Shown here piece by piece: positions 3,465 through 28,417 of a stretch of DNA of 64,000 bases. Positions within the stretch are counted from its first letter, which is position 1, and each line of letters opens with the position of its first letter. The stretch is taken from positions 4,822-68,821 of the forward strand of contig PLYT01000016.1 of assembly GCA_003153475.1 (NCBI GenBank). The letters are read 5' to 3'. The notes beneath the pieces are model-generated. The model was given only the letters and a program-made list of their open reading frames with translations. It was not told the origin of the DNA and did no database searches. The stretch is from Betaproteobacteria bacterium. Its GTDB lineage: Bacteria > Pseudomonadota > Gammaproteobacteria > Burkholderiales > Casimicrobiaceae. The position numbers were made by a program, and so were the translations under genes.

Positions 3465-4997
3465 CTAGGCCCCGTGCATCGCAAGGCGGAGGATGTTCTC
3501 CTCCGACAGCTCTGTCCGGGCAAGCTCGCCGCCGATCCTGCCGGCGCGCATGACGTAGGCGCGATCGCAAACATGGACGATCTCGGCGAGCTCGGCGCTG
3601 ATCAACAGCACGGCGGCGCCGCGCTCCACGAGGTCCTCGATCAGCGCAAAAATCTCGCTCTTGGCGCCGACATCGATACCGCGCGTTGGCTCATCGAACA
3701 GGAACAGCTTGCAACCCGCGGCCAGCCATTTGCCGACGACGATCTTCTGCTGGTTGCCGCCCGAGAGCACGCGCACCATCCGCCGCGGCGCGGGCGGGGT
3801 GACCCGTAACCGGTCGATCAGCGCCCGCGCACACGCGCGAGCCACGCCTGCCCGATACCAGCCGCGCGGAAAGAGCTTCCACAGGCTCGCGACCAGCAGA
3901 TTGTCCTGAACCGAACGCTTGAGCGCGAGGCCTTCGAGCTTGCGATTCTCGGGGATCAGCGCGACGCCGCGTGCGGCGATACGCTCGGGTCCGCCTTTGG
4001 CGATCGCGCCAAAAATGCGGACTTCGCCGGCGACGATGGCGTCGGCGCCGAACACCGCGCGCGCGACCTCGGTGCGTCCGGCGCCAACCAGGCCGGACAA
4101 ACCGACGATCTCGCCTTCGCGCACGTTGAGGTCGACATCGCGCACGCCGGTCGCGGTCGTCAAGCCGCGCACCTCCAGTACGATCTCGCCCGCTTTTCCG
4201 TATTGCCGCCGCTTGTAGACGGCACCTACCGCGCGTCCGACCATCATGCCTATCAGCTGGTCGGGTGTCGCTTCGCGCGCAGGCAGCGTCGCCACGCGCC
4301 GCCCGTCGCGAAGCACCGTCACCCGGTCGCCCAGTTCGAACACCTCCTGCATCCGGTGCGAGATGCAGGCGATGGCGACGCCGGAAGCGCGAAGCTGCCG
4401 GATCAGCGTGAACAGGGTCTTGCTCTCGCGCTCGGACAGCGCCGCTGTAGGCTCGTCCATCACCAGGATGCGCGCACGTTGCGACAGTGCCTTGGCGATC
4501 TCGACCATCTGCTGCTGCGCGACCCCGAGATCGACCGCCAGGGCGCGCGTGTCGTAGTCGAGTCCCAGCGAGTCGAGCACGGCGCGCGCTTCGCGATGCA
4601 TGCGCCCGTGGTCGATCAGCCGCGTCAGCGGCCGGCGCGGCTCGCGTCCGAGAAAGATGTTCTGCGCGAGATCGAGGAAGGGAACGAGCGAGAATTCCTG
4701 GAAGATCACCGCGATGCCGAGCCGGCGCGCATCGGCCGGTCGCGTGATCTCGACCAGCCTGCCGTCGCAGAGGATCGTTCCGGCGTCGGCGCGATACGCA
4801 CCGTAGAGGACCTTGATCAGCGAGGACTTGCCCGCGCCGTTCTCTCCGAGCAGCATGTGGACCTCACCGGCATGAAGATCGAGGCTCACGTCGTCGAGCG
4901 CACGCACGCCGGGAAAAGTCTTGCTGACGTTGCGCAACGCCAGCAGCGGAACCGCCGAAGCGGGTTGCCCGGATCCGTCGGTATCGTCGCGGTTCAC
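3465..4997 (-). CDS. sugar ABC transporter ATP-binding protein (RbsA/MglA type, two ATPase domains)
   Basis: Two fused ABC ATPase domains. The first has Walker A GENGAGKSS and Walker B ILVMDEPTAAL; the second has a degenerate A-loop (GLVGAGRTEV), the signature LSGGNQQK and Walker B LFLFDEPTRGID, exactly the RbsA/MglA pattern. I chose the GTG at 4997, about 20 residues before the first domain and 29 bases after the RidA stop. An in-frame ATG at 5099 would overlap the RidA gene by 73 bases and add 34 unremarkable residues. It energises import through the two adjacent permeases. Confidence 0.88.
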   Translation of the reverse strand: MNRDDTDGSGQPASAVPLLALRNVSKTFPGVRALDDVSLDLHAGEVHMLLGENGAGKSSLIKVLYGAYRADAGTILCDGRLVEITRPADARRLGIAVIFQEFSLVPFLDLAQNIFLGREPRRPLTRLIDHGRMHREARAVLDSLGLDYDTRALAVDLGVAQQQMVEIAKALSQRARILVMDEPTAALSERESKTLFTLIRQLRASGVAIACISHRMQEVFELGDRVTVLRDGRRVATLPAREATPDQLIGMMVGRAVGAVYKRRQYGKAGEIVLEVRGLTTATGVRDVDLNVREGEIVGLSGLVGAGRTEVARAVFGADAIVAGEVRIFGAIAKGGPERIAARGVALIPENRKLEGLALKRSVQDNLLVASLWKLFPRGWYRAGVARACARALIDRLRVTPPAPRRMVRVLSGGNQQKIVVGKWLAAGCKLFLFDEPTRGIDVGAKSEIFALIEDLVERGAAVLLISAELAEIVHVCDRAYVMRAGRIGGELARTELSEENILRLAMHGA

Positions 4998-5026
4998 GGG
5001 CGGCGGGTCACCGGCGATTGACGCGA

Positions 5027-5479
5027 TCAGCCCAGAGGGCGCACGGCGATCATGTCGAGCTCCACCCGCGCACCGGGCGTCGAGAGCGAGTTGATGCAAA
5101 TCGTCGTGCTCGCCGGCTTCCAGTCGCCGAAATACTCACTGAGCACTTCGACCATGCCGTCCATATCGCGCATATCGGTCAAATATTTGGTGACCTTCAC
5201 CACGTGACGCCAGGTGAGTCCCTGGTCATCGAGCACCAGCTTGATGCCTTCCATCGCCCGCCGGGTCTGCGATCCGATGTCGATCGGATGCCGATGCTCG
5301 TCGGCGACGTGCGGATGCTGGTGATAAAGCGGCGACGAGGTCGAGCCCGAGATGAACAGGATGTCGGCCGGTCCGCCGACACGAACCGCCGGCGCGTACG
5401 GCATGTAGCGCTCCTGATCCGGCCGCGGGTGCACTGCTGCGATGCGCTGCGCGACGCCGGTGCTGTCATTGGCCGCCAT
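5027..5479 (-). CDS. RidA family (YjgF/YER057c/UK114) protein
   Basis: A 150-residue Rid-family protein: the segments ILFISGSTS, EGIKLVLDDQGLTW, VVKVTKYLTDM and VELDMIAV follow the family order. RidA proteins hydrolyse reactive enamine/imine intermediates or act as substrate-specific deaminases; the N-terminal extension and HQHPHV loop point to a divergent subfamily rather than canonical RidA. It lies between the substrate-binding protein and ATPase genes of the transporter operon, suggesting that the imported compound or a product is an amino/imino acid. Confidence 0.85.
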   Translation of the reverse strand: MAANDSTGVAQRIAAVHPRPDQERYMPYAPAVRVGGPADILFISGSTSSPLYHQHPHVADEHRHPIDIGSQTRRAMEGIKLVLDDQGLTWRHVVKVTKYLTDMRDMDGMVEVLSEYFGDWKPASTTICINSLSTPGARVELDMIAVRPLG

Positions 5480-5537: not shown

Positions 5538-6524
5538 CTATTTCGCGTAATCCTCCCATTTCGGGCATGTGCGCTTTTCCGCGGGAACCTCGAACGGGCC
5601 GGTCGTGGTCTTGTCGATCACGATACCCTTGATCACGATCGTGTCGGGCACCGTTTCCTTGCGCAGGCTCCGCAGCGCAGCCATTGTCGCCAGGCAGCCC
5701 ATCTTGTAGCCATTGAACTCGGCAGTGGCGAGAAGGCGTCCCGCCTTGATCGCTTCGATCGATTCGGGCACGCCGCCGATCCCGACGACCATGGTCGCCT
5801 TTTTCCCCGCCGCCTCGAGCGCCTCGATCGCGCCGAACGCCATCACGTCGGCGGCGGCCATCACGCCGTCTATCGATGAATTCGACTGGATCAGGTTTTC
5901 CATCACCTGCAACGCCTGTAGCCGCTGGTAATTGGCCGGCTGGGACGCGAGCAATTTGACGCCCGGGTTTTCTTCGAGCGCCTTGTGGAAACCGCGCACG
6001 CGATCGTCGCTGGTGGTCGAGCCCTTGACGCCTTCGAGGATCACCACATTGCCTTTCCCGCCGAGTGCCTTGAGCAGATAGCGGCCGGCGTCCAGACCGA
6101 GGTTGAAATCGTCGGCGGCGACGTAGCTCACGAACTTGCCGCCGCGAACACGATCGTTGTAATTGACCAGCGGGATGCCCGCGGCGTTGACCTTTTCGAT
6201 GGCAGGCACGACACCGCGCGGATCGACCGCCATGAAAAGGATCGCGTCAGGCTTCTTGACGGTGACGTCCTCGATCTCGGAAAGCTGCTCGGCAAGATTG
6301 TTCGGCCGCGTCGGCGCGTAATGCGTCACGGGCCCGGCGCCCATCTCCTTTGCCGCCGCCTCCACGCCGGCGCGGACCAGCGCGAAATGCGGATCGACCT
6401 GGTTCTTGTAGAACGCGGCCAGACGTTCGCCCGCCGCGCTCGCCGGGTCGGCAGCCAGCGCCGCGCCGCTCGCGGCCACGACCAGCGCAAGACCATGCAG
6501 AGCCATCCGATGCCTGCTGTTCAT
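5538..6524 (-). CDS. sugar ABC transporter periplasmic substrate-binding protein
   Basis: A periplasmic binding protein of the RbsB type (Peripla_BP_4), about 328 residues. The ATG at 6524 follows a strong AGGAGG at the right distance, so the in-frame start 13 codons upstream was rejected. An N-terminal signal peptide ends near ADPASA. Later segments such as DAILFMAVDPRGV, IPLVNYNDR and GVMAAADVMAFGAIEAL match the two-lobed binding fold. First gene of the five-gene transporter operon; ligand unknown. Confidence 0.9.
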   Translation of the reverse strand: MNSRHRMALHGLALVVAASGAALAADPASAAGERLAAFYKNQVDPHFALVRAGVEAAAKEMGAGPVTHYAPTRPNNLAEQLSEIEDVTVKKPDAILFMAVDPRGVVPAIEKVNAAGIPLVNYNDRVRGGKFVSYVAADDFNLGLDAGRYLLKALGGKGNVVILEGVKGSTTSDDRVRGFHKALEENPGVKLLASQPANYQRLQALQVMENLIQSNSSIDGVMAAADVMAFGAIEALEAAGKKATMVVGIGGVPESIEAIKAGRLLATAEFNGYKMGCLATMAALRSLRKETVPDTIVIKGIVIDKTTTGPFEVPAEKRTCPKWEDYAK

Positions 6525-6600
6525 CGCTTCCTCCTGTTCCGATCCGGTGATGCGTCGACGCACAAGGTCGCCGGCGCCGCTTGAAGTTTACCGCATGCGA

Positions 6601-7548
6601 TCACGAAACCAGGCAAAACGGCCCGCGCGCCAACGCGCCCGGGTCGTACAGCACGCGCCAGATGCCGGAGAGGCCGAATGCGATCAGCACGGCAGCGACC
6701 GCGTAGCGCAGCGCCTTGCCGTCGAACGCTCGTCTGGCGCGGCCGAGCAGGACGTTTGCCGCCATCAGATTGGGCAAGGTTCCGAGTCCGAAGGCAAGCA
6801 TCACTGCCCCGCCTTGCCAGGCACCTCCGGCAAACAGCGCCAGCGGAAGCACGCTGTAGACCAGCCCGCAGGGCAGCAGGCCCCAGAGCAGCCCCAGCGC
6901 AATCCGTCCTGCCGCGCCCGGACGCTGCAGCAGCGGCTTGACGACCGGCAGCACCGCGCCGAATGCTTTGGCGCCGGTCCGCTGCAGCCATCCGCCGCCC
7001 GGCGCGGCAAACGCAAGGCTCATGCCCAGGCGGCCGAGGCGCAGATCGCGCAGCGCGCCGGTAAAGAATGGCGCGGCACAGTAGAGCAAGGCAGGAAGCG
7101 TCAGCACCAGGCTCGCCCATTCGAGCAGCGCCTGCTGCTCCGGGGCAATGGCGTCGATGCTGATGTACGCGGGTACGGCGAACATCATCACCTGCATCAT
7201 GATGAGTGCGGCGATCGCGGTGCGCTTGAGCAAGGTCCGCGCTTCGCGCCTGGCCAGGGCCTCCCGCCGCGCCATATCGTACGGATAGGCGCGGTAGCCG
7301 ATCGCGGCGACCGCGCGCAACAGATCCGAAAGTTTCGATTGCCGCGGATCCCAGCGCACACGCGCCCGGCGCGACACGAAATTGATGCTGACGTCCAGCA
7401 CCCCCGGCCGGCGTTGCAGATAGGTTTCGTTGAGCCATATGCAAGCCGCGCAGTGGATGCCCTCGAGCAGCAGCGATGCCTGACACGAGCCATCCTTGTT
7501 GGTCGTAACCAGGCCCCCGCCTCGACGGCAGCGTCGTAGCCGTCCCAT
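6601..7548 (-). CDS. chimeric ORF: CcoI-type metal-ATPase N-terminus fused to TauE/SafE-type C-terminus
   Basis: The open frame joins two unrelated pieces. Residues ~14-175 match the start of a cbb3-oxidase copper ATPase (CcoI/FixI): heavy-metal domain with GIHCAACIW and the first two membrane helices ending near LRDLRLGRLGM. From about residue 180 it becomes the C-terminal half of a TauE/SafE-like (COG2836) membrane protein: WGLLPCGLVYS, FGLGTLPNL. The ATPase CPC, DKTGT and TGES motifs are absent. In many betaproteobacteria these two genes are the ends of the cco cluster, so the join looks like deletion of everything between. Unlikely to be functional as an ATPase. Confidence 0.6.
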   Translation of the reverse strand: MGRLRRCRRGGGLVTTNKDGSCQASLLLEGIHCAACIWLNETYLQRRPGVLDVSINFVSRRARVRWDPRQSKLSDLLRAVAAIGYRAYPYDMARREALARREARTLLKRTAIAALIMMQVMMFAVPAYISIDAIAPEQQALLEWASLVLTLPALLYCAAPFFTGALRDLRLGRLGMSLAFAAPGGGWLQRTGAKAFGAVLPVVKPLLQRPGAAGRIALGLLWGLLPCGLVYSVLPLALFAGGAWQGGAVMLAFGLGTLPNLMAANVLLGRARRAFDGKALRYAVAAVLIAFGLSGIWRVLYDPGALARGPFCLVS

Positions 7549-7827
7549 CGATCGTCATCCGGAGCGGGGAGCTCGGCGGCAACGGTCCGGCGCGAGTAGA
7601 AGCCTTCGAGGCCGGCGGCGCGGATCGTCTGCGCGACACCCATGCAGCCGGCGCAACAAAGAGCGTTCCGCGCCATCGAGCGCGAGTCGCCACATGGATC
7701 CCCGCGGGTTCAGCGCGCCGCAATGGAAACAGACGGCGCCAGCGACCTCCGGGCTTTCTGACGCGACCGACGCGCCACGGGCGAGGCCGACGGCAGATCC
7801 GCCGGCAACCGCTGCTAGCGGGTGCAC
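7027..7827 (-). pseudogene. ccoI/fixI (cbb3 oxidase copper-exporting ATPase) remnant, two frameshifts and 3' loss
   Basis: Reading minus strand in three frames recovers one CcoI N-terminus: CFHCGALNP (near 7731) in the first frame, then CCAGCMGVAQTI (near 7658) in the second, then the heavy-metal domain GIHCAACIW in the third. The first frame change lies near 7655-7676; the second at a run of five G (GCGGGGGCC, near 7515). Beyond ~7027 the ATPase body is missing and TauE/SafE sequence begins. Either genuine decay or a mis-assembly; the two independent indels favour decay. Confidence 0.7.
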
Positions 7828-8042
7828 GACACTGCGTTCGCCCGGTCCGAGCTATCAGGCGCAACCGAATCGCCGGAACAGCCAAGCTGCCGGAAGTGGC
7901 TTGGATCGACCGCTCCTGTACCAGCCGATGCCGCTGTGCCTGCGGGATCCATCAGCGCAACAAGCAGAAGCACCGCAAACGCCGTCGCGAGCAACACGTC
8001 GGCCACCGATCCCGCTGCCGTTGCAGTTCCCGTACCGTTCAT
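7815..8042 (-). CDS. small putative membrane protein, hypothetical
   Basis: A 75-codon frame with an ATG, a possible AGAGG ribosome site and one clear hydrophobic helix (VADVLLATAFAVLLLVAL, about residues 13-30), followed by an Ala/Gly/Ser-rich tail. It ends inside the 5' end of the decayed ccoI remnant. I do not recognise it. It may be another remnant of the same locus or a chance frame in GC-rich DNA. Confidence 0.3.
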   Translation of the reverse strand: MNGTGTATAAGSVADVLLATAFAVLLLVALMDPAGTAASAGTGAVDPSHFRQLGCSGDSVAPDSSDRANAVSCTR

Positions 8043-8393
8043 AAGTCAGCCTCTCTCGAATTCAGGCACCGGCTCGCTCGATTGCGCAAGAGCAAGCTCG
8101 ACATCGGGTAGGAGCTTATGCCGGACGTCCAGTGGCACCATGATCTGCGTCAAGCCGGGACCAATCTCGAGGATGGGCGGCCCCTCCGCCAATCGACCGA
8201 TACTTCCGCGCGCGACGAATCGACACTTTCATGACTTACGTCACACTTTCGGGCGCTGCGCCGCGCTATGTTGGCTATCGTTCCAACATCCGGAAACGAA
8301 GTCGTGATGGCGAAGGTCGGCGACATCGATCGTGGACTGCGACTCGTCGCAAGCTTCCCGATTGCCGGTCTGCCGTAAAACTACGAGGGACCA
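8043..8393. other. gene-free stretch with a weak FNR-like palindrome
   Basis: No convincing coding frame. The only structure seen is ATGACTTACGTCAC at 8231-8244, whose TGAC-N4-GTCA core resembles ANR/FNR/Dnr half sites with one mismatch at each end. It lies about 150 bases before the AhpD-like gene and could regulate it, possibly through the Crp/Fnr protein encoded next. Confidence 0.35.
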
Positions 8394-8741
8394 ATGACCA
8401 AGTCTTACCGTGAAATCACCCGCTCGGTATCCTCTTCCCTGGCAAAGCTGCGGGTGGATACCCCTGATGTCCTCAAGGCGTTCGGCGCTCTGGCAGAGGC
8501 GGCCACCCGCGAAGGCGCCCTAACGCACAAGACCAAGGAGCTGATCGCGCTCGCTCTGGGCGTGGCCGGCCATTGCGACGCCTGCCTCGGATTTCATCTC
8601 AAGGCACTGACCAAGCTCGGGGCGACGCGAGCCGAGGTCGAAGAAGCGCTCGGCGTAGCCATCTACATGGGTGGCGGCCCATCGCTGATGGTCGCCGCGG
8701 ATGCGCTTGCAGCGTTCGAAGAGCTGCAAGCGCCCGCTTGA
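8394..8741 (+). CDS. carboxymuconolactone decarboxylase/AhpD-family protein
   Basis: A 115-residue all-helical protein with the family core KELIALALGVAGHCDACLGFH (about residues 45-65), whose CDAC is the CxxC redox pair and whose following His is conserved in AhpD-like alkylhydroperoxidases. YMGGGPSLM matches the family's C-terminal helix. Probably a small cytosolic peroxidase or thiol reductase. It sits 28 bases before a Crp/Fnr regulator on the same strand and is probably co-transcribed with it. Confidence 0.88.
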   Translation: MTKSYREITRSVSSSLAKLRVDTPDVLKAFGALAEAATREGALTHKTKELIALALGVAGHCDACLGFHLKALTKLGATRAEVEEALGVAIYMGGGPSLMVAADALAAFEELQAPA

Positions 8742-8769
8742 GGCGGCGAATCGGCGCCGGTCAGTCGCG

Positions 8770-9381
8770 ATGACCAGCCCGACCCTCGACTGGATACCCG
8801 CGCGCGTCAGGGAACGCTCGACCGTGCGCAAGCTCGAGGCGGGGCAGACGCTTTTTCGCCAGGGCGACAAAGCCTCCGCTATATTCGAGGTCGAGCAGGG
8901 GCGGGTCCAGTTGATCCGCCACACGGTCGACGACCATCCGGTCGTAATGCATACAGCACGGCAGGGCCACCTGTTCGCCGAAGCAGCGTTATTCGCCAGC
9001 GCTTATCACTGTGACGCGGTAGCCCCGGTCGCCGCACTCGTCCGCGCTTACCCGAAGCGCGAGTTGCTCGCCGCGCTGCGAGCCGATCCTACGATGGCCG
9101 AACGCTTTATGGCGGCGCTTGCGCATCAGGTACACGCTCTTAGGGCAAGGCTCGAGGAGCGAAATATCCGGTCGGCGCGACAGCGGGTGCTGCACCATCT
9201 GTCGCTCAAGGCCGACGACGACGGGCGCACGATGCGGCTGGACGGGACCCTGGTGGAATTGGCAGCCGAGATCGGCCTCACCCACGAGGCGCTTTACCGA
9301 ACCCTCGCCGCACTCGAAAAGGGCGGAATCGTCCGACGCACCAAGTCGGCGATCGTCTTGCGCAAGCCGGCCGCACTATGA
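8770..9381 (+). CDS. Crp/Fnr family transcriptional regulator
   Basis: A 203-residue regulator with an N-terminal cyclic-nucleotide-like beta-roll (FRQGDKASAIFEVEQGRVQL), a long dimer helix (about residues 110-135) and a C-terminal winged helix (LVELAAEIGLTHEALYRTLAALEKGG). It has no cysteines in the Fnr cluster positions, so it is a Dnr/Crp-like rather than oxygen-sensing Fnr-type sensor. I prefer the ATG at 8770; earlier in-frame starts would overlap the AhpD-like gene. Its last codons contain a palindrome that may be its own operator for the next gene. Confidence 0.88.
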   Translation: MTSPTLDWIPARVRERSTVRKLEAGQTLFRQGDKASAIFEVEQGRVQLIRHTVDDHPVVMHTARQGHLFAEAALFASAYHCDAVAPVAALVRAYPKRELLAALRADPTMAERFMAALAHQVHALRARLEERNIRSARQRVLHHLSLKADDDGRTMRLDGTLVELAAEIGLTHEALYRTLAALEKGGIVRRTKSAIVLRKPAAL

Positions 9382-9393
9382 TCACGATCATAG
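9376..9393. promoter_or_regulatory. perfect FNR/Dnr-like palindrome
   Basis: CTATGATC-AC-GATCATAG: two 8-base arms around two bases, containing TGAT-N4-ATCA, the core of Crp/Fnr-family boxes. It overlaps the stop codon of the regulator gene and lies 55 bases before the ATG of the Met/His-rich protein, the natural place for an activator of that gene. Confidence 0.6.
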
Positions 9394-9448
9394 GGAATCA
9401 CAGGCGATGGGATTACAGTCATCGGCATCAATGTCCAAGGAACTATCG

Positions 9449-10201
9449 ATGAACGGATTTGCGCGCAGCTTCGCCACGATCGCGGCAGTCACGGCGCTGG
9501 CCGCCACCACTGTCATTACGAGCATCGAGCCTCTTCGCGCGGCATCGCCCGAGGAGCCCGGTGCGACGGTACCGTCGGCGACCGTTCATACGGCCGGCGA
9601 CGATGGTCAGGCCGGGCCCGGCGCCGCGACGGGCGGCCACGACCAGTCGGGTACCGGCGGGGCAATGCCATCCATGATGCAGCCGCACGGGTCGATGACG
9701 ATGGATATGCATGCGATGCACGCCATGCATGCCTGGCAGATGGAAAGTGCGATTCCTGTCTCGTCCGGTCAGGATGCCTTCGGCGCGATCCAGGAAATCG
9801 TCGCCAGGCTCGAAGCCGATCCGGCCACCGACTGGTCCAAGGTAAACCTCGAGGCGTTGCGGCAGCATCTTGTCGACATGAACGAGGTGACGCTCAGAGC
9901 AGACGCCGCAGCGACTCCGGTTGCAGGCGGAGTGGCGATTGCGATCACAGGGACCGGCCGGACGCTCGCGGCGATCCAGCGAATGGTGCCCGCGCATGCG
10001 CAGGAGATCGACGGGCTGAATCACTGGCGCGCTACCACGGCCGCGCTGGCCAACGGCATATCGTTGACCGTGACATCCGACGATCCGAAGGAAGTTCAGA
10101 AGATTCGCGGCCTGGGATTCATCGGCATCCTGGTGACCGGTTCGCACCATAAGCCGCATCATCTGGCCATAGCCAGAGGAGAGTTCCCCCACGCCCATTA
10201 G
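9449..10201 (+). CDS. secreted Met/His-rich protein of unknown function
   Basis: A 250-residue protein with a signal peptide (cleavage likely after SIEPLRA). A low-complexity region follows, then a striking Met/His cluster (MHAMHAMHAWQM, about residues 86-97) and His-rich ends (HHKPHHL near the C-terminus), consistent with copper or other soft-metal binding in the periplasm. The middle part (EALRQHLVDMNEVTLRAD, VAIAITGTGRTL) looks like a folded domain I cannot name. The ATG at 9449 has AAGGA upstream; in-frame ATGs at 9407 and 9431 lack one. The adjacent palindrome suggests control by the preceding Crp/Fnr protein. Confidence 0.75.
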   Translation: MNGFARSFATIAAVTALAATTVITSIEPLRAASPEEPGATVPSATVHTAGDDGQAGPGAATGGHDQSGTGGAMPSMMQPHGSMTMDMHAMHAMHAWQMESAIPVSSGQDAFGAIQEIVARLEADPATDWSKVNLEALRQHLVDMNEVTLRADAAATPVAGGVAIAITGTGRTLAAIQRMVPAHAQEIDGLNHWRATTAALANGISLTVTSDDPKEVQKIRGLGFIGILVTGSHHKPHHLAIARGEFPHAH

Positions 10202-10286
10202 GACTCGCGCCGACGCCGCGGCGCGAGCAAGCTTCGCCGCTGCAACCGCGAGCGCCAGATGCCGCAGCGCTGCCGACCGGCCGGCC

Positions 10287-11132
10287 TTAGGTGCGGCTAG
10301 CGGACCGCCGGGTCACGCGGGGCGCGCGTGCCTTGGCGCGCCTCGTGGTCCTGGCGCGTTTCGCGGTCTTCGGCGCAGATTTCTTGGCCCGGCGGGTCGT
10401 CCTGCGCTTTGCGCGGAGAGCCGGGGGCGTTGCGCGCTTGGCCACGCTCTTGCGTGGCTTGGCCACGCTCGTCCTTCGCTTCGAGACCGCGCCTTTCGCC
10501 TCCAGTGCCTCGGACATTCCGATCAGAATGCCGCTAGCGAGCGTCGCAAAATTCTGGGTAAGCAGGTGCGCCGCCTTGAACCCCGTCTCGCGCTGCTTGC
10601 GCAAGGCCGTTTGGGCCCGCTTTGCGAAGTCCCGGGCGGTGGCTGCCGCCGTGGCTCCGGTGCCCGTACCGGTCAGCTTCGTCTTCCGCAGCACCCGCGC
10701 CCACTGCGCGGCGATCTTTTCGCCGGCGCTATCGGCCGACTTCGCCACGCTTTGCAGCAACGCGTCTTCGAACCGCCCGAGATCGCGCGAAGCCTGCTTG
10801 AGATAGGAGTCCTCGTAATCCTGCCCTGCGCTTCCCAACCGGTCGAGCGCGACCTTGGTCGCCTCGACGACTTTGAGCAGCGCGTCGTCCATGCCTGCCA
10901 GCGCATCGGCCAGCGCTTTTTCGACGTTCATCTCGCGGTCGACCACGCCGAGAGTCACGCCCACGGTAACATTTTCCAGCACGCCTCTTATCTGTTCCAG
11001 CGTGAGCTCGCGGCGCTCGAGCGCCTTGAGGGTGAGCGCGCGCACCGTCGTGCGCAGATTCGCGCCCTGCCTGGCTGACTCGCTTGCCAGTCTCTTCAGG
11101 GCATCATCGGTATCGATTGCGACGTTCTTCAT
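10287..11132 (-). CDS. DUF6781-like protein with histone-H1-like basic tail
   Basis: A 281-residue protein. Residues 1-200 are helical and resemble the DUF6781 family (LKRLASESARQG, LRTTVRALTLKALERREL, LAGMDDALLKVVEATKVAL), often seen with stress or granule proteins. From about residue 220 the chain is almost pure Lys/Arg/Ala with KRARTTRRAKAR-type repeats, like bacterial histone-H1/AlgP-like DNA-binding tails. AGGAGG precedes the ATG at 11132, which fixes the start. It is divergent from hemN across a promoter with two FNR-type boxes. Role unknown; nucleoid or granule binding is an inference. Confidence 0.7.
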   Translation of the reverse strand: MKNVAIDTDDALKRLASESARQGANLRTTVRALTLKALERRELTLEQIRGVLENVTVGVTLGVVDREMNVEKALADALAGMDDALLKVVEATKVALDRLGSAGQDYEDSYLKQASRDLGRFEDALLQSVAKSADSAGEKIAAQWARVLRKTKLTGTGTGATAAATARDFAKRAQTALRKQRETGFKAAHLLTQNFATLASGILIGMSEALEAKGAVSKRRTSVAKPRKSVAKRATPPALRAKRRTTRRAKKSAPKTAKRARTTRRAKARAPRVTRRSASRT

Positions 11133-12837: not shown

Positions 12838-14262
12838 TCAGTCGGGACGCGATTCGACAGGGCCCTCCGGCACCCGGACTACGTAGACGCTGCACGGTGC
12901 GTTCGCGGTGACGCTGGAGGCAACCGAACGCCACCATGCGAGGGCCCGCTCGGTTGGCCCCGGTGCCCCCAGGACGATCAGGTCGACGTGATTGGCTCGT
13001 GCCAGGTCGAGCAGCGTCGCCGTCGCATTGGCTGCCTCCACGACAAGGAGCGAAAGGCGCGACGAGGGCAGCTTCAGCGGTTCCACCCAGTGCCGCAGCC
13101 GGGTCTTGTGCTCGAGGTGCTTGCCGGAAGCGGTGTCGGCGTCGGCGGGTCCCTCGCCCAGCGGCGCCGCCCTGACCACCGATACGCACATCAGCCGAAA
13201 TTCGGGATTGAGCGCGACCAGCTGCCGCGTCGCCAACTGCAGTGACGGATGGCGCTCGTCGTCCGGATGCTCGGTATCCACTGCCACCATGATCACCGGT
13301 GCGCGTATTGCGATGTTTTGGCGCCGGCCGAGCGCATGGCGATCGCGACGCGACTGCCACCAGCGGGCGAACTGCGGGAAAAAACCAGCCCCCTCGGTCC
13401 GACCAGCACGCTCCGACAGCGTAACCTGCTCCGGATGGCGCAAGTCGAATGCGATCTGGGCTGCCGATTGGTAGCGCGCTGCAGCCACCGGTTCAAGGCA
13501 ACGCAGAATGATCTCCTGCAGCCAGGGAGGCACCCGTTCGTTCAGCGCACACGGCGGAAGGGGCTCGCGCCAGAGACGATCGCGCATGCCGGCGTAGGTC
13601 TGAGGTTCACCGAATGGCTGCGTGCCGGTGGCCAGCTCGAAGAGCAGCACGCCCAGGGCGAAGAGGTCGCTGCGCGGGTCGCTCCGATCGTTCTGCAACT
13701 GCTCGGGGGATACGTAGGCGGCCGAACCCGCCGCGAAATCCTTCGACTCGGCGAGCAGGTCGGGATAGCGCGCGTGCCTGGCGAAGCCGAAGTCGAGCAG
13801 CACGGCATCGCCGTTCGGACGCAACATGACATTCTCGGGCTTGAGATCCAGATGGATGACCTGTTGCGTGTGCACACTATGCACCGCGTCGGCAAGCGCC
13901 GAACCGACGCGCGCGACCTCCCCGGGCGGCAACGGGGCCTGCGCGATGATCTTCTCGAGACCTTCTCCGTCGATCCGTTCCATTACGATATAGGGCGTCG
14001 CGGTCAAATCTCCCGCTGCCACGAAGCGCGGCACCGACGGGCCGGTCAAGATCGGCACGATCATCTGCTCGATCTCGAAACTGTCGATGCCGATCGTGGG
14101 CTCACCAGGCCCCAGCGCCGGAGCCTTCATCACCATCGGAAAGCCCGGATCCCTTTCCGGCGGCGCAGTGACGCTGAAAATGTAGCCGGTCCCTCCCTTG
14201 TGCAGGCATTCACCGAGGCGGAAGCCGTCGATGGTCGCGCCGGGTTGCAGACGTTCCCGCAT
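12838..14262 (-). CDS. serine/threonine protein kinase fused to a universal-stress-protein domain
   Basis: N-terminal Hanks-type kinase: Gly loop HKGGTGYIF, catalytic Lys in VMKAPAL, catalytic loop HLDLKPENVM, DFGFA and an SPEQL P+1 segment, over about 290 residues. A UspA-like domain follows (about residues 315-470) with PVIMVAVD, LLVVEAANATATLLDLARANHVDLIVLGAPG and an SVTANAPCSVYVVR end. The chosen ATG removes a 27-residue extension that would overlap the phosphoesterase gene. Probably a cytosolic stress-signalling kinase; the fusion suggests nucleotide or stress sensing by the Usp domain. Confidence 0.85.
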   Translation of the reverse strand: MRERLQPGATIDGFRLGECLHKGGTGYIFSVTAPPERDPGFPMVMKAPALGPGEPTIGIDSFEIEQMIVPILTGPSVPRFVAAGDLTATPYIVMERIDGEGLEKIIAQAPLPPGEVARVGSALADAVHSVHTQQVIHLDLKPENVMLRPNGDAVLLDFGFARHARYPDLLAESKDFAAGSAAYVSPEQLQNDRSDPRSDLFALGVLLFELATGTQPFGEPQTYAGMRDRLWREPLPPCALNERVPPWLQEIILRCLEPVAAARYQSAAQIAFDLRHPEQVTLSERAGRTEGAGFFPQFARWWQSRRDRHALGRRQNIAIRAPVIMVAVDTEHPDDERHPSLQLATRQLVALNPEFRLMCVSVVRAAPLGEGPADADTASGKHLEHKTRLRHWVEPLKLPSSRLSLLVVEAANATATLLDLARANHVDLIVLGAPGPTERALAWWRSVASSVTANAPCSVYVVRVPEGPVESRPD

Positions 14263-14294
14263 GGATTCGAAAGGGGCGCCGCGAAAGGAGACAG

Positions 14295-15035
14295 TCAGAT
14301 GCCGAGTTCCACGCGACAGGCGAGCGACTCGGGCAAGCCGCATTTTCGGATGCGATCCGCCGCGACCATCGCATCATAGGGAACACGATAGAACGTCAGC
14401 TGCTCGCGTCCGCGGTCGAACAGCGTATAGGCTGCTGCCGGATTGCGATCGCGCGGCTGCCCGACCGATCCCACGATCGCTACCCAGCGTCGACGGCTGC
14501 GCACCGGGATCGGCGTCCCGGGAGTCGGGCGGAACTCGCACATTCGGCCGTTCGCGTCCTCGAAGTAGAGCAATTGATCGTGCACATGTCCACAGAACGT
14601 ATAGAGCGATTTGGCCGCCTCGGCGCAGCGTTTCGCCGCCGACGGACTGTCGATGTAGTCCCATCGTTCGGGAGACGCCGCCGACGCGTGGACATAACAC
14701 ACGGTTCCGTCGCGCGCCACGAGGGGCAGCGACGCCAGAAAGCGCTTCTGCTCGTCGCTGAGCGTCTGGCGCGCCCATTCGATGGCGGCGAGCGCAGCTT
14801 CGTTGAAGTACCCGGCGCTCTTTTCGACAGCCTGATCGTGGTTGCCCTTGAGCGCCACGGCGCCTTCCGCCGCGTACCGGATGACGATGTCGACGACGCC
14901 CCCTGGATCGGCCCCATAACCGACAAAATCCCCCAGGAAGGCGAAGCGCTGCGCACCATGCTCACCCGCGTGCCGCAGGCAAGCCGTCAGCGCCTCGGTG
15001 TTGGCGTGGATGTCGGACAACAGCGCAATGCGCAA
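14295..15035 (-). CDS. metallophosphoesterase (calcineurin-like)
   Basis: A 246-residue enzyme with all metallophosphoesterase motifs in order: DIHAN (8-12), GDFVGYG (35-41), GNHD (64-67), VHAS near 115 and GHVHDQ near 149. It belongs to the YfcE/diadenosine-tetraphosphatase-like group acting on phosphodiesters or phosphoprotein. It lies 32 bases upstream of the kinase-Usp gene on the same strand, so kinase and phosphatase may be one operon, possibly antagonists. Confidence 0.88.
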   Translation of the reverse strand: MRIALLSDIHANTEALTACLRHAGEHGAQRFAFLGDFVGYGADPGGVVDIVIRYAAEGAVALKGNHDQAVEKSAGYFNEAALAAIEWARQTLSDEQKRFLASLPLVARDGTVCYVHASAASPERWDYIDSPSAAKRCAEAAKSLYTFCGHVHDQLLYFEDANGRMCEFRPTPGTPIPVRSRRRWVAIVGSVGQPRDRNPAAAYTLFDRGREQLTFYRVPYDAMVAADRIRKCGLPESLACRVELGI

Positions 15036-15512: not shown

Positions 15513-17309
15513 GTGGATGTATTCAAGGCGGACGTTGCCATTGTCGGCGCCGGGGGTGCGGGGCTGCGCGCAGCCATCGCCGTGGCCGAGGCCGATCCAT
15601 CGCTGACCGTGGCGCTGATCTCCAAGGTCTACCCGATGCGAAGCCATACCGTCGCCGCCGAAGGCGGATCCGCCGGCGTGGTGCAGGCGAACGACAGCCT
15701 GCAACATCATTTCGACGACACCGTTACCGGCGGCGATTGGCTGTGCGAGCAAGACACCGTCGATTATTTCGTCGCCCATTGCGCCGAGGAGATGGTGCAG
15801 CTCGAGCATTGGGGATGCCCGTGGAGCCGCAAGGACGACGGCCATGTCGACATTCGCGCGTTCGGCGGGATGAAGATAGAGCGAACCTGGTTTGCTGCCG
15901 ACAAGACCGGGTTTCACATGCTGCATACGTTGTTCCAGACGTCGATCAAATACCCATCGATCAAGCGGTTCGACGAGCACTTTTGCTGCGATCTGATCGT
16001 CGACGACGGCCGCTGCCACGGCGTGTTGGCTATCGAGATCGGCACCGGCGAGTTCAGACTTATCCAGGCGAAGGCGGTCATCATCGCAACCGGTGGTGCA
16101 GGAAGGGTCTTCCGGCAAAACACCAACGGAGGCATCGTCACCGGCGACGGCATGGCGCTGGCGTACCGCTACGGCGTCCCGCTACGCGATATGGAGTTCA
16201 TCCAGTACCACCCGACCTGCCTGCCTGGAAGCGGACTGCTGATCACCGAGGCATGTCGCGGCGAAGGCGGCATCATGGTCAACAAGGACGGGCATCGCTA
16301 CCTGCAGGACTACGGCCTCGGCCCTGCCGATCCATGGCCGCGCAAGAAGGCGATGGAACTCGGCCCGCGTGATCGCCTGTGCCAGGCGTTCTGGCACGAA
16401 GAGCAGAACGGCCGCACCATCGCTACTGCGCAAGGGCAAGCGGTTCATCTCGACTTGCGCCATCTCGGGAAAGAGAAGCTGCACCAGCGTCTGCCGCAAA
16501 TCTGCGAGATGGCGGAGGCGTTCCTCGGCGTCGATCCTGTCTATGCGCCGATTCCGGTGCGTCCGGCAGTTCATTACACGATGGGTGGAATCCTGGTCGA
16601 CACCAAAACCGCTTCACCGCTGCCTGGCCTGTATGCAGCCGGCGAATGCTCGAGCATCGGCATCCACGGCGCCAACCGGCTCGGTTCGAACTCGCTCGCC
16701 GAACTATGCGTGTTCGGGAAGGTCGCGGGAAGCGAGGCGGCGCGATTTGCCAGGTCGATCGCTGCGGCCAATTCCACGACGATCGAAAGACAAGCCGACG
16801 CAGCGCGCCAGCGCGCGATGAACGTTGTGAGCCGGTCCAAGGGAAGTGAACGTATTTCTGTATTACGCAACGAAATGGCTCTCAGCATGGAGCGCGGTTG
16901 CGGCATCTATCGCACCGGACGCGACATGCAGGATACCTGCGATAAGATCGACGAGCTGAAGCTGCGCTACAGGGACGTCGAGGTCGGCGACAAGTCGAGC
17001 GTCTGGAATACAGAGTGGTTGCTCGCGATCGAGCTGGGCTATCTGCTCGATGTCGCACAGGCGATCGTCTATTCGGCGCTGAACCGCAAAGAGTCGCGTG
17101 GCGCGCACCAGCGTCTCGACGGCTTCGACCAGCGCGACGATGCGAACTACCTCAAGCACAGCCTGGCCCACTACGTTGACGCCGGCCCGCCGCGCATCGA
17201 CTACGGGCCGGTAGCAATCACCCGATCCCAACCCGGGACGCGTGCCTATGGCGCCGCCGGCGAGCAGGCAGAGCGGGACCGCAAGCGTGCCGGAGCGGCC
17301 CATGAATGA
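15513..17309 (+). CDS. frdA: fumarate reductase flavoprotein subunit
   Basis: A 598-residue flavoprotein catalysing fumarate reduction on the cytoplasmic side. FAD loop VGAGGAG (11-17); RSHTVAAEGGSAG supplies the His (45) that binds FAD covalently; His233 and Arg248 in HPTCLPGSG and CRGEGG are the catalytic positions; HGANRLGSNSL is the C-terminal signature. GTG start with GGGGAG upstream. Its stop overlaps frdB by eight bases. The small FrdC/FrdD anchors downstream identify fumarate reductase rather than Sdh. FNR-type boxes and the later rquA imply rhodoquinol as donor. Confidence 0.95.
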   Translation: MDVFKADVAIVGAGGAGLRAAIAVAEADPSLTVALISKVYPMRSHTVAAEGGSAGVVQANDSLQHHFDDTVTGGDWLCEQDTVDYFVAHCAEEMVQLEHWGCPWSRKDDGHVDIRAFGGMKIERTWFAADKTGFHMLHTLFQTSIKYPSIKRFDEHFCCDLIVDDGRCHGVLAIEIGTGEFRLIQAKAVIIATGGAGRVFRQNTNGGIVTGDGMALAYRYGVPLRDMEFIQYHPTCLPGSGLLITEACRGEGGIMVNKDGHRYLQDYGLGPADPWPRKKAMELGPRDRLCQAFWHEEQNGRTIATAQGQAVHLDLRHLGKEKLHQRLPQICEMAEAFLGVDPVYAPIPVRPAVHYTMGGILVDTKTASPLPGLYAAGECSSIGIHGANRLGSNSLAELCVFGKVAGSEAARFARSIAAANSTTIERQADAARQRAMNVVSRSKGSERISVLRNEMALSMERGCGIYRTGRDMQDTCDKIDELKLRYRDVEVGDKSSVWNTEWLLAIELGYLLDVAQAIVYSALNRKESRGAHQRLDGFDQRDDANYLKHSLAHYVDAGPPRIDYGPVAITRSQPGTRAYGAAGEQAERDRKRAGAAHE

Positions 17310-18054
17310 GACCCACAAAGTAATTGCGATCGAGGTTCTGCGCTACCGGCCGGAGCTGGACGAGAAGCCTTTTTTCCAGACCTATCAGGTTCCGTTCACG
17401 GAAGAGATGTCGGTGCTGCAGGGGCTGCTCTACATCAAGGACGAGCTCGACGGCACGCTCAGCTTCCGTTGGTCGTGCCGGATGGCGATTTGCGGCAGCT
17501 GCGGCGCAATGATTGACGGCGTCCCGATGCTCGGTTGCCATACCTTCCTGCGCGACTATTATCCGAACAAGGTACGCGTCGAACCGCTCGCCCATTTTCC
17601 GATCGAACGCGACCTGGTCGTAGGCGCGGATGACTTCATCGGCAAGCTTGAACGCATCAAGCCTTACATCGTCCCGAAGGAGCCCCGCACGCTTGCTGAA
17701 GGCGAATACTTGCAGACCCCGGCGCAACTCGAGCGGATCCTGCAATTCAGTTCGTGCATCAACTGCATGCTCTGTTACGCCGCTTGCCCCCAGTACGGCC
17801 TCGATCCGGCCTTCATCGGCCCGGGGGTGCTGGCGCTGCTGCATCGGTACAACGCCGACTCCAGAGACGCCGCCCGCGCCGACAGAATGCAGCTGGTCAA
17901 TGCCGAGGAAGGCGTCTGGAGCTGCACTGCCGTCGGCTATTGCTCCGAGGTCTGTCCGAAGGGAGTCGATCCGGCGAACGCCGTCAACCAGAACAAGACG
18001 GCAAGCGCGGCCGATTACTTCCTCCATTGGCTGCCCAAGGGAAGCGGGAAGTGA
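17302..18054 (+). CDS. frdB: fumarate reductase iron-sulfur subunit
   Basis: A 250-residue subunit with the [2Fe-2S] motif CRMAICGSCGAM plus the later Cys in LGCH, and the [4Fe-4S]/[3Fe-4S] motifs CINCMLCYAACP and CTAVGYCSEVCPKGVDP. Cluster order and length fit FrdB. The ATG lies within the end of frdA. It carries electrons from quinol to FrdA. Confidence 0.95.
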   Translation: MNETHKVIAIEVLRYRPELDEKPFFQTYQVPFTEEMSVLQGLLYIKDELDGTLSFRWSCRMAICGSCGAMIDGVPMLGCHTFLRDYYPNKVRVEPLAHFPIERDLVVGADDFIGKLERIKPYIVPKEPRTLAEGEYLQTPAQLERILQFSSCINCMLCYAACPQYGLDPAFIGPGVLALLHRYNADSRDAARADRMQLVNAEEGVWSCTAVGYCSEVCPKGVDPANAVNQNKTASAADYFLHWLPKGSGK

Positions 18055-18449
18055 GCGCGCGCCGCCCCTATATCCGCTCGATGGACGGGTGGTGGCGCCG
18101 AGACCCGTTCTTCATCCGCTACATGATCCGCGAAGCGACCGCACTGCTGGTCGTCGCCTATGCGGCGGTGTTGCTGCTGGGTGCGATTCGCCTCGCCCAG
18201 GGCGAGTCCGCGTACGAGCGATGGCTGGCGGCGCTGCGTAGCCCATGGTCGCTCGCATTTCATCTCGTGCTTTTCGCCGGCCTCGTCTATCACACGTGGA
18301 GCTGGTTCCAGATCGTGCCGAAAACGATGCCGTCGATTTCGGTCGGTGGCAAAAAGCTTCAGCCGGCGGTAATCACCGGGACCGGGCTTGTCGCCGCCGC
18401 CTTTGTGAGCCTCGTCCTCCTTCTCCTGCTGTTGTTCATCGGATCATGA
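18051..18449 (+). CDS. frdC: fumarate reductase membrane anchor subunit C
   Basis: A 132-residue protein starting with GTG that overlaps the frdB stop by four bases. RRPYIRSMDGWWRRDPFFIRYMIRE matches the FrdC N-terminus in type, including the Glu of the quinol site in YMIRE, and three membrane helices follow. No haem ligand pattern like that of SdhC is seen, as in E. coli Frd. With FrdD it forms the rhodoquinol/menaquinol site. Confidence 0.92.
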   Translation: MSARRPYIRSMDGWWRRDPFFIRYMIREATALLVVAYAAVLLLGAIRLAQGESAYERWLAALRSPWSLAFHLVLFAGLVYHTWSWFQIVPKTMPSISVGGKKLQPAVITGTGLVAAAFVSLVLLLLLLFIGS

Positions 18450-18802
18450 AGCGCTCGAATGCTCCGATCTTCTGGACCTTGTTCGGTGCCGGAGGAATGC
18501 TGTCGGCGTTGATCGGGCCGATGCTGGTGCTGATCACCGGCATCGCCGTTCCGCTCGGCTTCCTTCTGCCGGCCGATCTGATGAGTTACCCGCACATGCT
18601 CAAGTTCGCCCAGCATTGGGCGGGCAAGGCATTCACATTCGCCGTCGTGTCGCTGTTCTTGTGGCACGGAGTACATCGCATCTTCCACAGCCTGCACGAC
18701 TTGGGGCTGAAAACGGCGACCGGCGCGAAGCTTACTTGCTATGGCGTGGCCCTTCTGGGCACAGCGCTTGCGGCGTACTCGCTGCTTGTGATCGGGTTCT
18801 GA
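18446..18802 (+). CDS. frdD: fumarate reductase membrane anchor subunit D
   Basis: A 118-residue protein with three membrane helices; ATG overlaps the frdC stop (ATGA). The segment LWHGVHRIFHSLHDLGL is the FrdD signature. Length matches E. coli FrdD (119). Completes a four-gene frdABCD operon with all junctions overlapping. Confidence 0.92.
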   Translation: MKRSNAPIFWTLFGAGGMLSALIGPMLVLITGIAVPLGFLLPADLMSYPHMLKFAQHWAGKAFTFAVVSLFLWHGVHRIFHSLHDLGLKTATGAKLTCYGVALLGTALAAYSLLVIGF

Positions 18803-18838
18803 CCCGATGTCGTAAGGCCACCGAGGTCGCGGCTCTTA

Positions 18839-18852
18839 TTGATTTGCGTCAA
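18839..18852. promoter_or_regulatory. FNR/ANR-type box upstream of the 2-oxoacid oxidoreductase operon
   Basis: TTGATTTGCGTCAA, a TTGAT-N4-GTCAA site in the gap after frdD, 112 bases before the gamma-subunit ATG. It indicates a separate anaerobic promoter for the oxidoreductase-rquA operon. Confidence 0.62.
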
Positions 18853-18964
18853 GAGAGCCTCTTGCAATGCTTGCGACTTTTTCCAGAGGGCGGAAACTGA
18901 CCATCAGACGCCTTTGGCCGCGCCGAGCGGCAAGCGTCGACGGATGGTCGAGGGAAGGGAAGCA

Positions 18965-19543
18965 ATGTTTCAGGTTCGTATTCACGGTCGTGGCGGCCAG
19001 GGCGTCGTCTCAGGTGCCGAGATGTTGTCGGTCGCCGCCTTCGTTGAAGGCCGTTACGCGCAGGCGTTTCCGAGCTTCGGCTCCGAGCGCATGGGCGCGC
19101 CGGTCATGGCGTTCTGCCGCATCGACGCGAAGGAGATACGGCTGCGCGAGCCGGTGCTGGAGCCCGACGCAGTGATCATTCAGGACCCGACATTGTTGCA
19201 CCAGGTCGATCTGTTCAAGGGCTTGCAAGAGCAAGGGTACATCCTGATCAACTCGACGCGGAGCTTCGGCGAATTGGGCTTGCGCGATTTCACGCGCGGT
19301 TTTAGCGAGTTTCGCCTATGCCACGTGCCGGCGACCGAGATCGCGATGAAGCACGTCGGGCGCGCGGTACCGAACGTGCCTCTGCTCGGCGCTTTCGCCG
19401 CGGTCAGCGGGCAAATCAGAATCGAGTCGATCGTGGCCGCGATCCATGAGAAGTTCGCCCCGGCGCTCGCGCGAGCGAATGTCGCCGCGGCGGCCGAGGC
19501 CTATGCGATCGTCAAGGCAACGAGGGAAACCGCCAATGCTTAA
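18965..19543 (+). CDS. 2-oxoacid:acceptor oxidoreductase gamma subunit (pyruvate type)
   Basis: A 192-residue gamma domain: FQVRIHGRGGQGVVSGAEML, QAFPSFGSERMGAPV and later NVPLLGAFA are the family marks. It binds the CoA/structural interface of pyruvate-type ferredoxin oxidoreductases. AGGGAAGGGA before the ATG at 18965 fixes the start over a longer frame. Its stop lies eight bases inside the alpha gene. Confidence 0.9.
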   Translation: MFQVRIHGRGGQGVVSGAEMLSVAAFVEGRYAQAFPSFGSERMGAPVMAFCRIDAKEIRLREPVLEPDAVIIQDPTLLHQVDLFKGLQEQGYILINSTRSFGELGLRDFTRGFSEFRLCHVPATEIAMKHVGRAVPNVPLLGAFAAVSGQIRIESIVAAIHEKFAPALARANVAAAAEAYAIVKATRETANA

Positions 19544-20789
19544 GCAGATCGAAGGCTCCCGCGCCGTAGCCGAAGCCATTGCGCGCTGCCGGCCGGAGGT
19601 GATTTGCGCTTATCCGATCACTCCACAGACTCACATCGTCGAGGGACTCGGCGAAATGGTGAAATCGGGCGAGCTCGCCAATTGCGAGTTCATCAACGTC
19701 GAATCCGAATTCGCCGCACTGTCGGTCGCGATCGGTGCGTCCGCTGCTGGTGCGCGCGCCTACACCGCCACGGCGAGCCAGGGGTTGTTGTTCATGGCGG
19801 AGGCCGTCTACAACGCCGCCGGCCTCGGGCTTCCGATAGTCATGACCATCGGCAATCGCGCGATCGGGGCGCCGATCAATATCTGGAACGACCATTCCGA
19901 CAGCATGTCGATGCGGGACGCGGGGTGGATCCAGCTCTACGCGGCGACGAACCAGGAAGCCCTCGACCTTCACATCCAGGCGTTCCGGCTGGCGGAGGAA
20001 CTCTCGTGTCCGGTCATGGTGTGCATGGACGGCTTCATACTGACCCATGCCTACGAGCGCGTCGACGTACCAGCGCAAGACGATGTCGATGCGTTCCTGC
20101 CGTCATTCGAGCCCCGTCAGGTACTCGACCCCGCCGAACCGGTAAGCATGGGGGCGATGGTCGGGCCGGAAGCATTCACCGAAGTTCGCTACCTCGCCCA
20201 TCACAAGCAGCTGCGCGCGCTCGAACTGATACCCAAACTCTCGGCGGCATTTCAGGCGCGATTCGGGCGTTCATCGGGCAGCTTGGTCAAGCCTTATCGG
20301 ACAGAGGATGCCGAGACCATCGTCGTCGCGCTGGGCTCGGTCAACGGCACGATCCAGGAAGTCGTCGACGAAATGCGCGATGCCGGCGTAAAGATCGGCT
20401 CGCTGGCCATCTGCTCGTTCCGGCCGTTCCCGCTGGAGCAGGTCCGCGACGCATTGCGGCACGCCAAGCGCGTCGTGGTGATCGAGAAATGCCTTGCGGT
20501 CGGCTTGGGCGGCATCGTCTCCGACGGCGTTCGCAACGCCCTGTCGGGCATCGTGCTTAGGGGCTACACCGTCATCGCGGGACTGGGCGGTCGCGCGATC
20601 ACGCGCGCGGCGCTAAGGCAATTGTTCCGGGATGCCGGCAACGATGTACTCGAGCAGCTCACGTTCCTGGACCTCGACGAGGGGCTGATCCAGTACGAGC
20701 TCGAGCGCGAGGCGCAGGCGCGCCGCTCCGGACCGACCGCCGAAGCCATCCTGCGCCGGGTCGGCACCGTGGCTTCGCAGGTTGCCTAA
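19536..20789 (+). CDS. 2-oxoacid:acceptor oxidoreductase alpha subunit (pyruvate type)
   Basis: A 417-residue alpha subunit. CAYPITPQTHIVE near the start, SAAGARAYTATASQGLL, NRAIGAPINIWNDHSDSM and GWIQLYAA are close to the PorA pattern; a C-terminal domain with VVIEKCLAVGLGG follows. It binds part of the thiamine pyrophosphate site and the oxoacid. The NIWNDHSD motif and separate gamma subunit favour pyruvate over 2-oxoglutarate, but substrate is inferred. Overlaps the gamma gene. Confidence 0.9.
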   Translation: MLKQIEGSRAVAEAIARCRPEVICAYPITPQTHIVEGLGEMVKSGELANCEFINVESEFAALSVAIGASAAGARAYTATASQGLLFMAEAVYNAAGLGLPIVMTIGNRAIGAPINIWNDHSDSMSMRDAGWIQLYAATNQEALDLHIQAFRLAEELSCPVMVCMDGFILTHAYERVDVPAQDDVDAFLPSFEPRQVLDPAEPVSMGAMVGPEAFTEVRYLAHHKQLRALELIPKLSAAFQARFGRSSGSLVKPYRTEDAETIVVALGSVNGTIQEVVDEMRDAGVKIGSLAICSFRPFPLEQVRDALRHAKRVVVIEKCLAVGLGGIVSDGVRNALSGIVLRGYTVIAGLGGRAITRAALRQLFRDAGNDVLEQLTFLDLDEGLIQYELEREAQARRSGPTAEAILRRVGTVASQVA

Positions 20790-20808
20790 GGCCGCCGGGA
20801 GTACCGAC

Positions 20809-21810
20809 ATGGAAATGCAGACCGTCAAGTTCTACCAGACCGGCACCTTCACCGTCGGCAACCGGCTGCTCGCCGAAGACGAGCGCAGCGTCCAGGCGAA
20901 CATGCATCGCACCAACTCGCTCAACTCGGGGCACCGCGCCTGCCAGGGCTGCGGCGAGGCACTAGGCGCGCGTTATGCGATCGATGCGGCGATGCGCTCG
21001 ACATCCGGCGAGCTTATCGCGGTCAACGCCACCGGATGTCTGGAGGTGTTTTCGACGCCCTACCCCGAGACGTCGTGGAAGATCCCATGGATTCATTCAC
21101 TTTTCGGCAACGCAGCGGCAGTCGCCTCCGGCGTCGCAGCCGCAATGCGCGTCAGGGGAAGATCCGCCGTACGTGTCGTCGCCCAAGGGGGCGATGGCGG
21201 CACGACCGACATTGGATTCGGCTGCCTGTCGGGAATGTTCGAGCGCAATGACGATGTTCTCTACATCTGCTACGACAACGAAGCCTATATGAACACCGGA
21301 GTCCAGCGCAGCAGTGCGACCCCGCCCGCGGCACGCACGGCTACCACCCCGGCTCTGGGCCGGGAACCCGGCAATGTCTTCGGCACCGGCAAGAACGTGC
21401 CGCTGATCGCGATGGCGCACTCGATCCCCTACGTCGCGACGGCGAGCGTGGCCAATTTGCGCGATCTCGAACGCAAGGTCGCCAAGGCCATGACAATCAG
21501 CGGCGCGCGCTATGTTCACATCCATGTCCCCTGCCCCCTCGGCTGGGGATCGCTTCCCGCCGACACGATCAAGGTCGCGCGACTGGCCGTCGAATCGGGA
21601 CTCTTCCCTCTGTTCGAAGCCGAGCACGGTGAAATCACGGGACGCACACCGATCCGACGCAAGGTGCCCGTGACCGATTATTTGCGGCTGCAGAAGCGCT
21701 TCGCGCATCTGTTCAACGTCGCGGATGAACCGCGCATTGCGCGGATCCAGGCGATTGCCGACCGCAACATCGCGAAATTCGGTCTGCTGGAGACCCCAGC
21801 CCATGGATAA
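20809..21810 (+). CDS. 2-oxoacid:acceptor oxidoreductase beta subunit (TPP-binding, pyruvate type)
   Basis: A 333-residue beta subunit with CQGCGEALGARYA (cluster Cys), NATGCLEVFSTPYP, the TPP/Mg loop GDGGTTDIGFG and CYDNEAYMNTGVQRSSATP, all close to PorB. I chose the ATG at 20809 with GGGAG upstream; a TTG at 20782 would overlap the alpha gene. Its stop lies eight bases inside the next gene, so all four genes are one translational unit. Confidence 0.9.
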   Translation: MEMQTVKFYQTGTFTVGNRLLAEDERSVQANMHRTNSLNSGHRACQGCGEALGARYAIDAAMRSTSGELIAVNATGCLEVFSTPYPETSWKIPWIHSLFGNAAAVASGVAAAMRVRGRSAVRVVAQGGDGGTTDIGFGCLSGMFERNDDVLYICYDNEAYMNTGVQRSSATPPAARTATTPALGREPGNVFGTGKNVPLIAMAHSIPYVATASVANLRDLERKVAKAMTISGARYVHIHVPCPLGWGSLPADTIKVARLAVESGLFPLFEAEHGEITGRTPIRRKVPVTDYLRLQKRFAHLFNVADEPRIARIQAIADRNIAKFGLLETPAHG

Positions 21811-23431: not shown

Positions 23432-23451
23432 TCCTGCGTCGTCCGCGATCG

Positions 23452-24156: not shown

Positions 24157-24236
24157 GCAGCCAGGGCGTGCCGATTGCCGATGCCCGGAAGGCCCCCCCG
24201 AGTGTCTCGTTTGCTCCACAGCCACGCATCCGGAAT

Positions 24237-24250
24237 TTGATCTACATCAA
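24237..24250. promoter_or_regulatory. FNR/ANR-type box, distal, decaheme operon
   Basis: TTGATCTACATCAA: perfect TTGAT and ATCAA halves with a four-base spacer, the ideal FNR/ANR consensus. Confidence 0.7.
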
Positions 24251-24275
24251 GCAATCCGTTCGCCCCCAGGGCTCC

Positions 24276-24289
24276 TTGACCTTTGTCAA
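24276..24289. promoter_or_regulatory. FNR/ANR-type box, proximal, decaheme operon
   Basis: TTGACCTTTGTCAA: perfect TTGAC-N4-GTCAA palindrome, 39 bases from the first box. Confidence 0.65.
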
Positions 24290-25623: not shown

Positions 25624-25647
25624 CGATAGCGAATCGGGGAGCATGAC

Positions 25648-28320: not shown

Positions 28321-28345
28321 GACAGCATCCAGGGTCAGGGGGGGC

Positions 28346-28377: not shown

Positions 28378-28417
28378 GTCGAAGACTCGTGCAACGACCG
28401 CTTCCCGACTCTCGCAG

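Follow-up and report, generated by a model that had tools for sequence, protein, structure and literature searches.

A fused ccoI-TauE/SafE stub is probably the relic of a deleted cbb3 oxidase cluster in a betaproteobacterial MAG

The minus strand at positions 6601-7827 of the window (the whole 64,000-nucleotide stretch of DNA that we analyzed) carries the remnants of two genes joined to each other. Based on tblastn and amino acid identity, the first is a truncated 5' remnant of ccoI (7021-7761, minus strand), which retains the metal-binding N-terminus with its HMA domain and the first transmembrane helices. The second, recognized by the DsbD_2 profile and by identity, is the 3' remnant of a TauE/SafE-like gene (6601-7020, minus strand) with its C-terminus kept. 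The longest open part of this fusion in the ORF list runs from an ATG at 7548 to 6601 (minus strand) and encodes 315 amino acids. Pfam places an HMA domain at residues 28-85 of this product (2e-10) and DsbD_2 at residues 183-293 (1.5e-21). The latter covers profile positions 92-198 of 199, which bears out the first-pass annotation in assigning only the C-terminal half of the domain to the fusion; the copy in the relative G001 covers positions 2-197. An ATPase-cat_bd domain (1.3e-8) lies in a shifted frame, within the ORF at 7676-7197.

Both halves have intact homologues among relatives. The ccoI half is 65-75% identical at the amino acid level to the intact CcoI of five relatives over 164-165 codons (E = 4e-65 to 2e-79; G016, G004, G010, G006, and G001), and the TauE half is 60-63% identical to the intact TauE of four of them over 139 codons (E = 5e-44 to 1e-49; G004, G001, G010, and G006), in both cases beyond chance. 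In tblastn, the CcoI proteins of relatives align from 7761 or 7740 down to ~7006 or beyond, and residues 102-243 of the G001 TauE match 7029-6604. The 315-residue protein is matched in 53 of 60 genomes searched (its own included), and the best matches in genera g1 and g5 cover one half or the other: those to residues 10-192 are CcoI frames of 856-899 amino acids, plus one further CcoI frame (G024) ended by a contig edge, and those to residues 166-314 are frames of 212-374 amino acids. An apparent exception, a natural HMA-TauE fusion in SAR324, was rejected, as by eye the spanning match comprises two neighboring separate genes, TauE-like and then CcoI.

The first-pass annotation had described the locus as a ccoI-TauE/SafE fusion read in one frame. 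The two halves are indeed joined in frame, but 7827-6601 as a whole is not a single frame. A small deletion of 2 bases (7659-7665, minus strand) breaks the ccoI frame and a second, of 1 base (7504-7517, minus strand), restores it, as placed by frameshift-aware alignment to the CcoI of G016, G004, and G006 and by MAFFT alignment with five relatives. The 2-base loss falls near 7659 and the 1-base loss at 7516-7517 relative to the G016 and G004 proteins, and at 7662 and 7504-7505 relative to G006. Between the two, frame translation gives a stop codon in the fusion frame (7555-7557, minus strand), at which the ORF 7555-7827 ends, and the ccoI stretch from ~7660 to ~7510 is readable in another frame only. 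Thus, no intact CcoI N-terminus is possible, and the longest open product begins with the ATG at 7548. In a codon-usage segmentation, the other genes of the window are mostly long and unbroken, so that the indels of the stub stand out and do not reflect a general error rate there. We also rejected assembly-wide indel errors as their cause: the breaks seen in rpoB fall at 2-base N gaps, and the window is free of N.

Measured against a functional CcoI, the fusion has the metal-binding N-terminus but neither a single frame from the native start nor the E1-E2 ATPase and hydrolase (phosphorylation) domains, both of which are present in the G001 CcoI; nor does it hold the whole DsbD_2 domain of a functional TauE/SafE-like protein. 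It does combine the features of a pseudogene formed by deletion, namely truncated genes that are intact in relatives, one join point, and disabling mutations. The stub does not exceed pairs of intact genes in pN/pS, which suggests that its decay is recent or that the open part is still constrained; as a means of dating the stub, pN/pS is uninformative, with synonymous sites near saturation. Scans near the stub for FNR boxes, promoters, terminators, and repeats gave nothing usable.

To locate the junction, window 6601-7827 was compared as DNA with 64 family genomes (its own included). Matches on the ccoI side reach query position 807/808, equivalent to window 7021/7020, and no further in 17 other genomes; other matches on this side stop earlier, for example at query 790 in G084, 786 in G021, and 680 in G024. 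The earliest solid match on the TauE side begins at query 829, equivalent to window 6999. Match ends and a codon-level view together place the junction, which is in frame, at 6999-7026 (minus strand), close to the range of about 7010-7040 proposed earlier, with approximately CTGGG(C) common to both sides. No match spans the join in any of the 63 other family genomes searched. The stretch shared at the join is ~5-9 bases, which is shorter than the overlaps used by assemblers and probably too short to mislead them; such short homology fits illegitimate recombination.

What lies between the two genes in relatives agrees with the earlier proposal that ccoI and TauE bracket the cco genes. In G001, the interval between the two breakpoints encodes FixH, FixG/CcoG, FixP, FixO, and a CcoN of the COX1 family and is bounded by a complete CcoI and a complete DsbD_2 protein; ccoN, ccoO, ccoP, ccoG, and ccoH lie on one strand between the end genes in the relatives. 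Intact clusters are seen in G001, G006, and G010, and in G004, where the cluster is split over two contigs; their end genes are homologous to the halves of the stub and have the same order and strand. In contrast, the stub consists of two fused fragments only, and lacks the 8.0-8.9 kb that separate the breakpoints in G001 (8009 bases), G006 (8633 bases), and G010 (8903 bases). FixO is present in 3 of the 7 genus genomes and 47 of the 64 family genomes (own genome included in both), and in 33 of the 38 family genomes that are ≥90% complete and ≤5% contaminated. The absence of cbb3 is therefore not rare in the family, although incomplete genomes blur the counts.

The genome itself is a MAG of 3.26 Mb in 115 contigs, estimated at 73.63% completeness. 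Within this assembly, the models for FixO (ccoO), CcoG, and CydA have no match, and no cbb3 locus with both ccoN and ccoO was found. A 9 kb query of the G001 cluster matches C18:11842-12143 and C18:11429-11808, which are the halves of the stub lying side by side. Elsewhere it gives two weak matches only: C37:49308-49445, within a gene discussed below (gene X), and C60:3500-3751, which we take to be another P-type ATPase. The search for ccoNO elsewhere in the genome, suggested by the first-pass annotation, returned two heme-copper oxidase (COX1) matches, both aa3-type: a whole CtaD on C5 and a fragment on C9. The latter (C9:46238-48412) is cut by the contig end, is 53% identical to the C5 CtaD, and adjoins what by eye appears to be a heme A synthase gene (CtaA). 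One intact aa3 subunit I and a fragment of another thus remain, so oxygen respiration was not lost. The claim that the high-affinity oxidase had been removed is supported for the cluster itself, whose span is gone with no cco piece elsewhere in this 73.6%-complete assembly, but does not extend to oxygen respiration, which is kept through aa3.

Assembly quality is uneven: the window contains no N, whereas the contig with rpoB and rpoC (C45:1-4493) is interrupted by seven 2-base N gaps and matches rpoB in separate pieces. This broken contig may lower the completeness estimate. A 2-base N gap also lies at C18 4820-4821, immediately preceding position 1 of the window.

The surroundings of the stub resemble those of the intact cluster in G004. 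On G004:C227, intact ccoI (7053-9596) lies next to genes for a metallophosphoesterase and a kinase-Usp protein, with MtrB and MtrA homologues ~6-10 kb further on. Homologues of the first two occupy 12838-15035 (minus strand) of the window: the kinase-Usp gene (12838-14343) is 72% identical to G004:C227 10737-12137, and the metallophosphoesterase gene (14295-15035) is 74% identical to 9948-10685. The window MtrB (25648-28320) and MtrA (24637-25623) are 66% and 83% identical to those of G004, respectively. All four genes lie inverted relative to the stub. The ccoI half itself is 75% identical to G016 and 73% to G004, and 65-67% to the other three relatives. The affinity of the stub to G016 and G004 and the neighborhood it has in common with G004 are thus two independent signs of a G004-type origin.

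The intact cluster of G001 and G006 occupies a different site, between a Usp gene and gene X, which has no Pfam domain. In the present genome, gene X and Usp are directly adjacent on C37, forming an empty cco site (C37:45000-52000, positions 3767-5472). A genus tree was built from CtaD in place of rpoB, which was matched in only 4 of the 7 genomes. This tree of one gene (partial in G002) groups the genome with G001 and G003, and not with G004. Its disagreement with the affinity of the stub suggests that the history of the cluster is not one of simple vertical descent, with apparent relocation or exchange of the cluster among members of the group. Over 165 codons, the CcoI of G016:C275 (genus g5) and the G004 CcoI (genus g1) share 92% identity, a far closer match than in other pairs, which we read as exchange or mis-binning.

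Based on these comparisons, we consider the stub to be the genuine remains of a deleted cbb3 cluster that have since decayed, with a probability of about 83%. This reading draws on the intact homologues, whose order and strand are as expected, and on the sharp common end of the ccoI homology. It also draws on the 9 kb query, which finds the halves side by side, and on the aa3-type COX1 matches that stand alone, with no FixO, CcoG, or CydA in the assembly. An ancestor would have possessed a complete ccoI...ccoN-O-P-G-H-TauE cluster of the G004 type. One illegitimate deletion of ~8-9 kb, ending within ccoI and within the TauE gene at a few bases common to both, would then have removed all intervening genes and fused what was left of the two in frame. 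The resulting stub would be a pseudogene, its ccoI part interrupted by the two small deletions and the stop. The cbb3 oxidase would thereby have been lost, while one or more aa3-type oxidases and a large set of anaerobic genes were kept, and low-oxygen respiration by cbb3 would have become dispensable.

The loss is most simply read as a single deletion, although this is not proven. The empty site of the G001/G006 type, together with a stub in a G004-like neighborhood of rearranged order, indicates that the region has been reshuffled, and the cluster could have been lost in several steps, by transposition or successive deletions. We regard such a course as unlikely yet deserving of some weight: the halves meet at one junction with nothing inserted between them, which needs one event only. 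It is less probable still that the assembler, or a mixing of strains, made the join and that the cell has an intact cluster. A fragmented and incomplete MAG with a frame-broken rpoB/rpoC contig invites this suspicion; however, such a join would have had to bring the ends together with correct order, strand, and frame over so few shared bases in an N-free window, leave no further cco piece in the assembly, and do so in a neighborhood common with G004. We also think it very improbable that the fusion is an expressed and useful membrane protein, to which CcoI contributes its copper-binding HMA domain and first helices and TauE its last helices. That 315 codons stay open after the indels, with pN/pS in the range of intact pairs, would suit such a protein, but its start region is broken by two indels and a stop, the CcoI ATPase domains are missing, the join recurs in none of the 63 other family genomes, and (as weak evidence) a sigma-70 scan of 6400-8500 found no promoter-like site. 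The most doubtful proposal is that the open frame is a newborn chimera kept for binding or moving copper for the remaining aa3 oxidases.

If the stub is such a relic, it provides a snapshot of how a high-affinity oxidase was lost, in which both breakpoints can still be read. As the first-pass annotation had noted, the window is rich in anaerobic genes, and the loss would fall in a lineage with fumarate reductase, pyruvate:ferredoxin oxidoreductase (PFOR), an MtrAB-type cytochrome conduit, and anaerobic ribonucleotide reductase. The window encodes a HemN-like radical SAM protein and anaerobic ribonucleotide reductase (NrdD) with a radical SAM protein. An anaerobic island at 15513-32989 holds frdABCD (flavoprotein, Fe-S subunit, FrdC, and FrdD), parts of PFOR, multiheme cytochromes with an MtrB/PioB porin, and an Fe-S protein with NrfD. 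A very long ORF (55695-64000) extends to the edge of the window and carries GH94 supersandwich and catalytic domains as well as a glucoamylase-like and a glycosyltransferase domain.

The site of the cco cluster differs within one genus-level group, being Usp/gene X in G001 and G006 and the kinase/MtrAB genes in G004, so the presence or absence of cbb3 in this group looks labile. The general view of gene loss is unchanged by the stub, which adds one more case of a known process, ordinary gene loss, and is not a new kind of system. Among the matches listed for literature on ccoI/cbb3 pseudogenes and cbb3 gene loss, as far as the accessible parts of these sources go, none describes a ccoI-TauE fusion. 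A parallel comes from Bordetella pertussis, also a betaproteobacterium. Its cbb3 oxidase (ccoNOQP) is described as non-functional, with ccoN a pseudogene and other oxidases remaining (PMC13038864). Loss of cbb3 function with other oxidases kept would thus be common to both genomes; in B. pertussis, however, the ccoN pseudogene stands within its operon, whereas here the body of the operon is gone and its two end genes are fused as a stub. Rubrivivax sp. A210 has the same type of cluster, with ccoI first, and its ccoISNOQPG, without ccoH, is described as a whole operon (PMC8218464), where the present genome has the fused stub.
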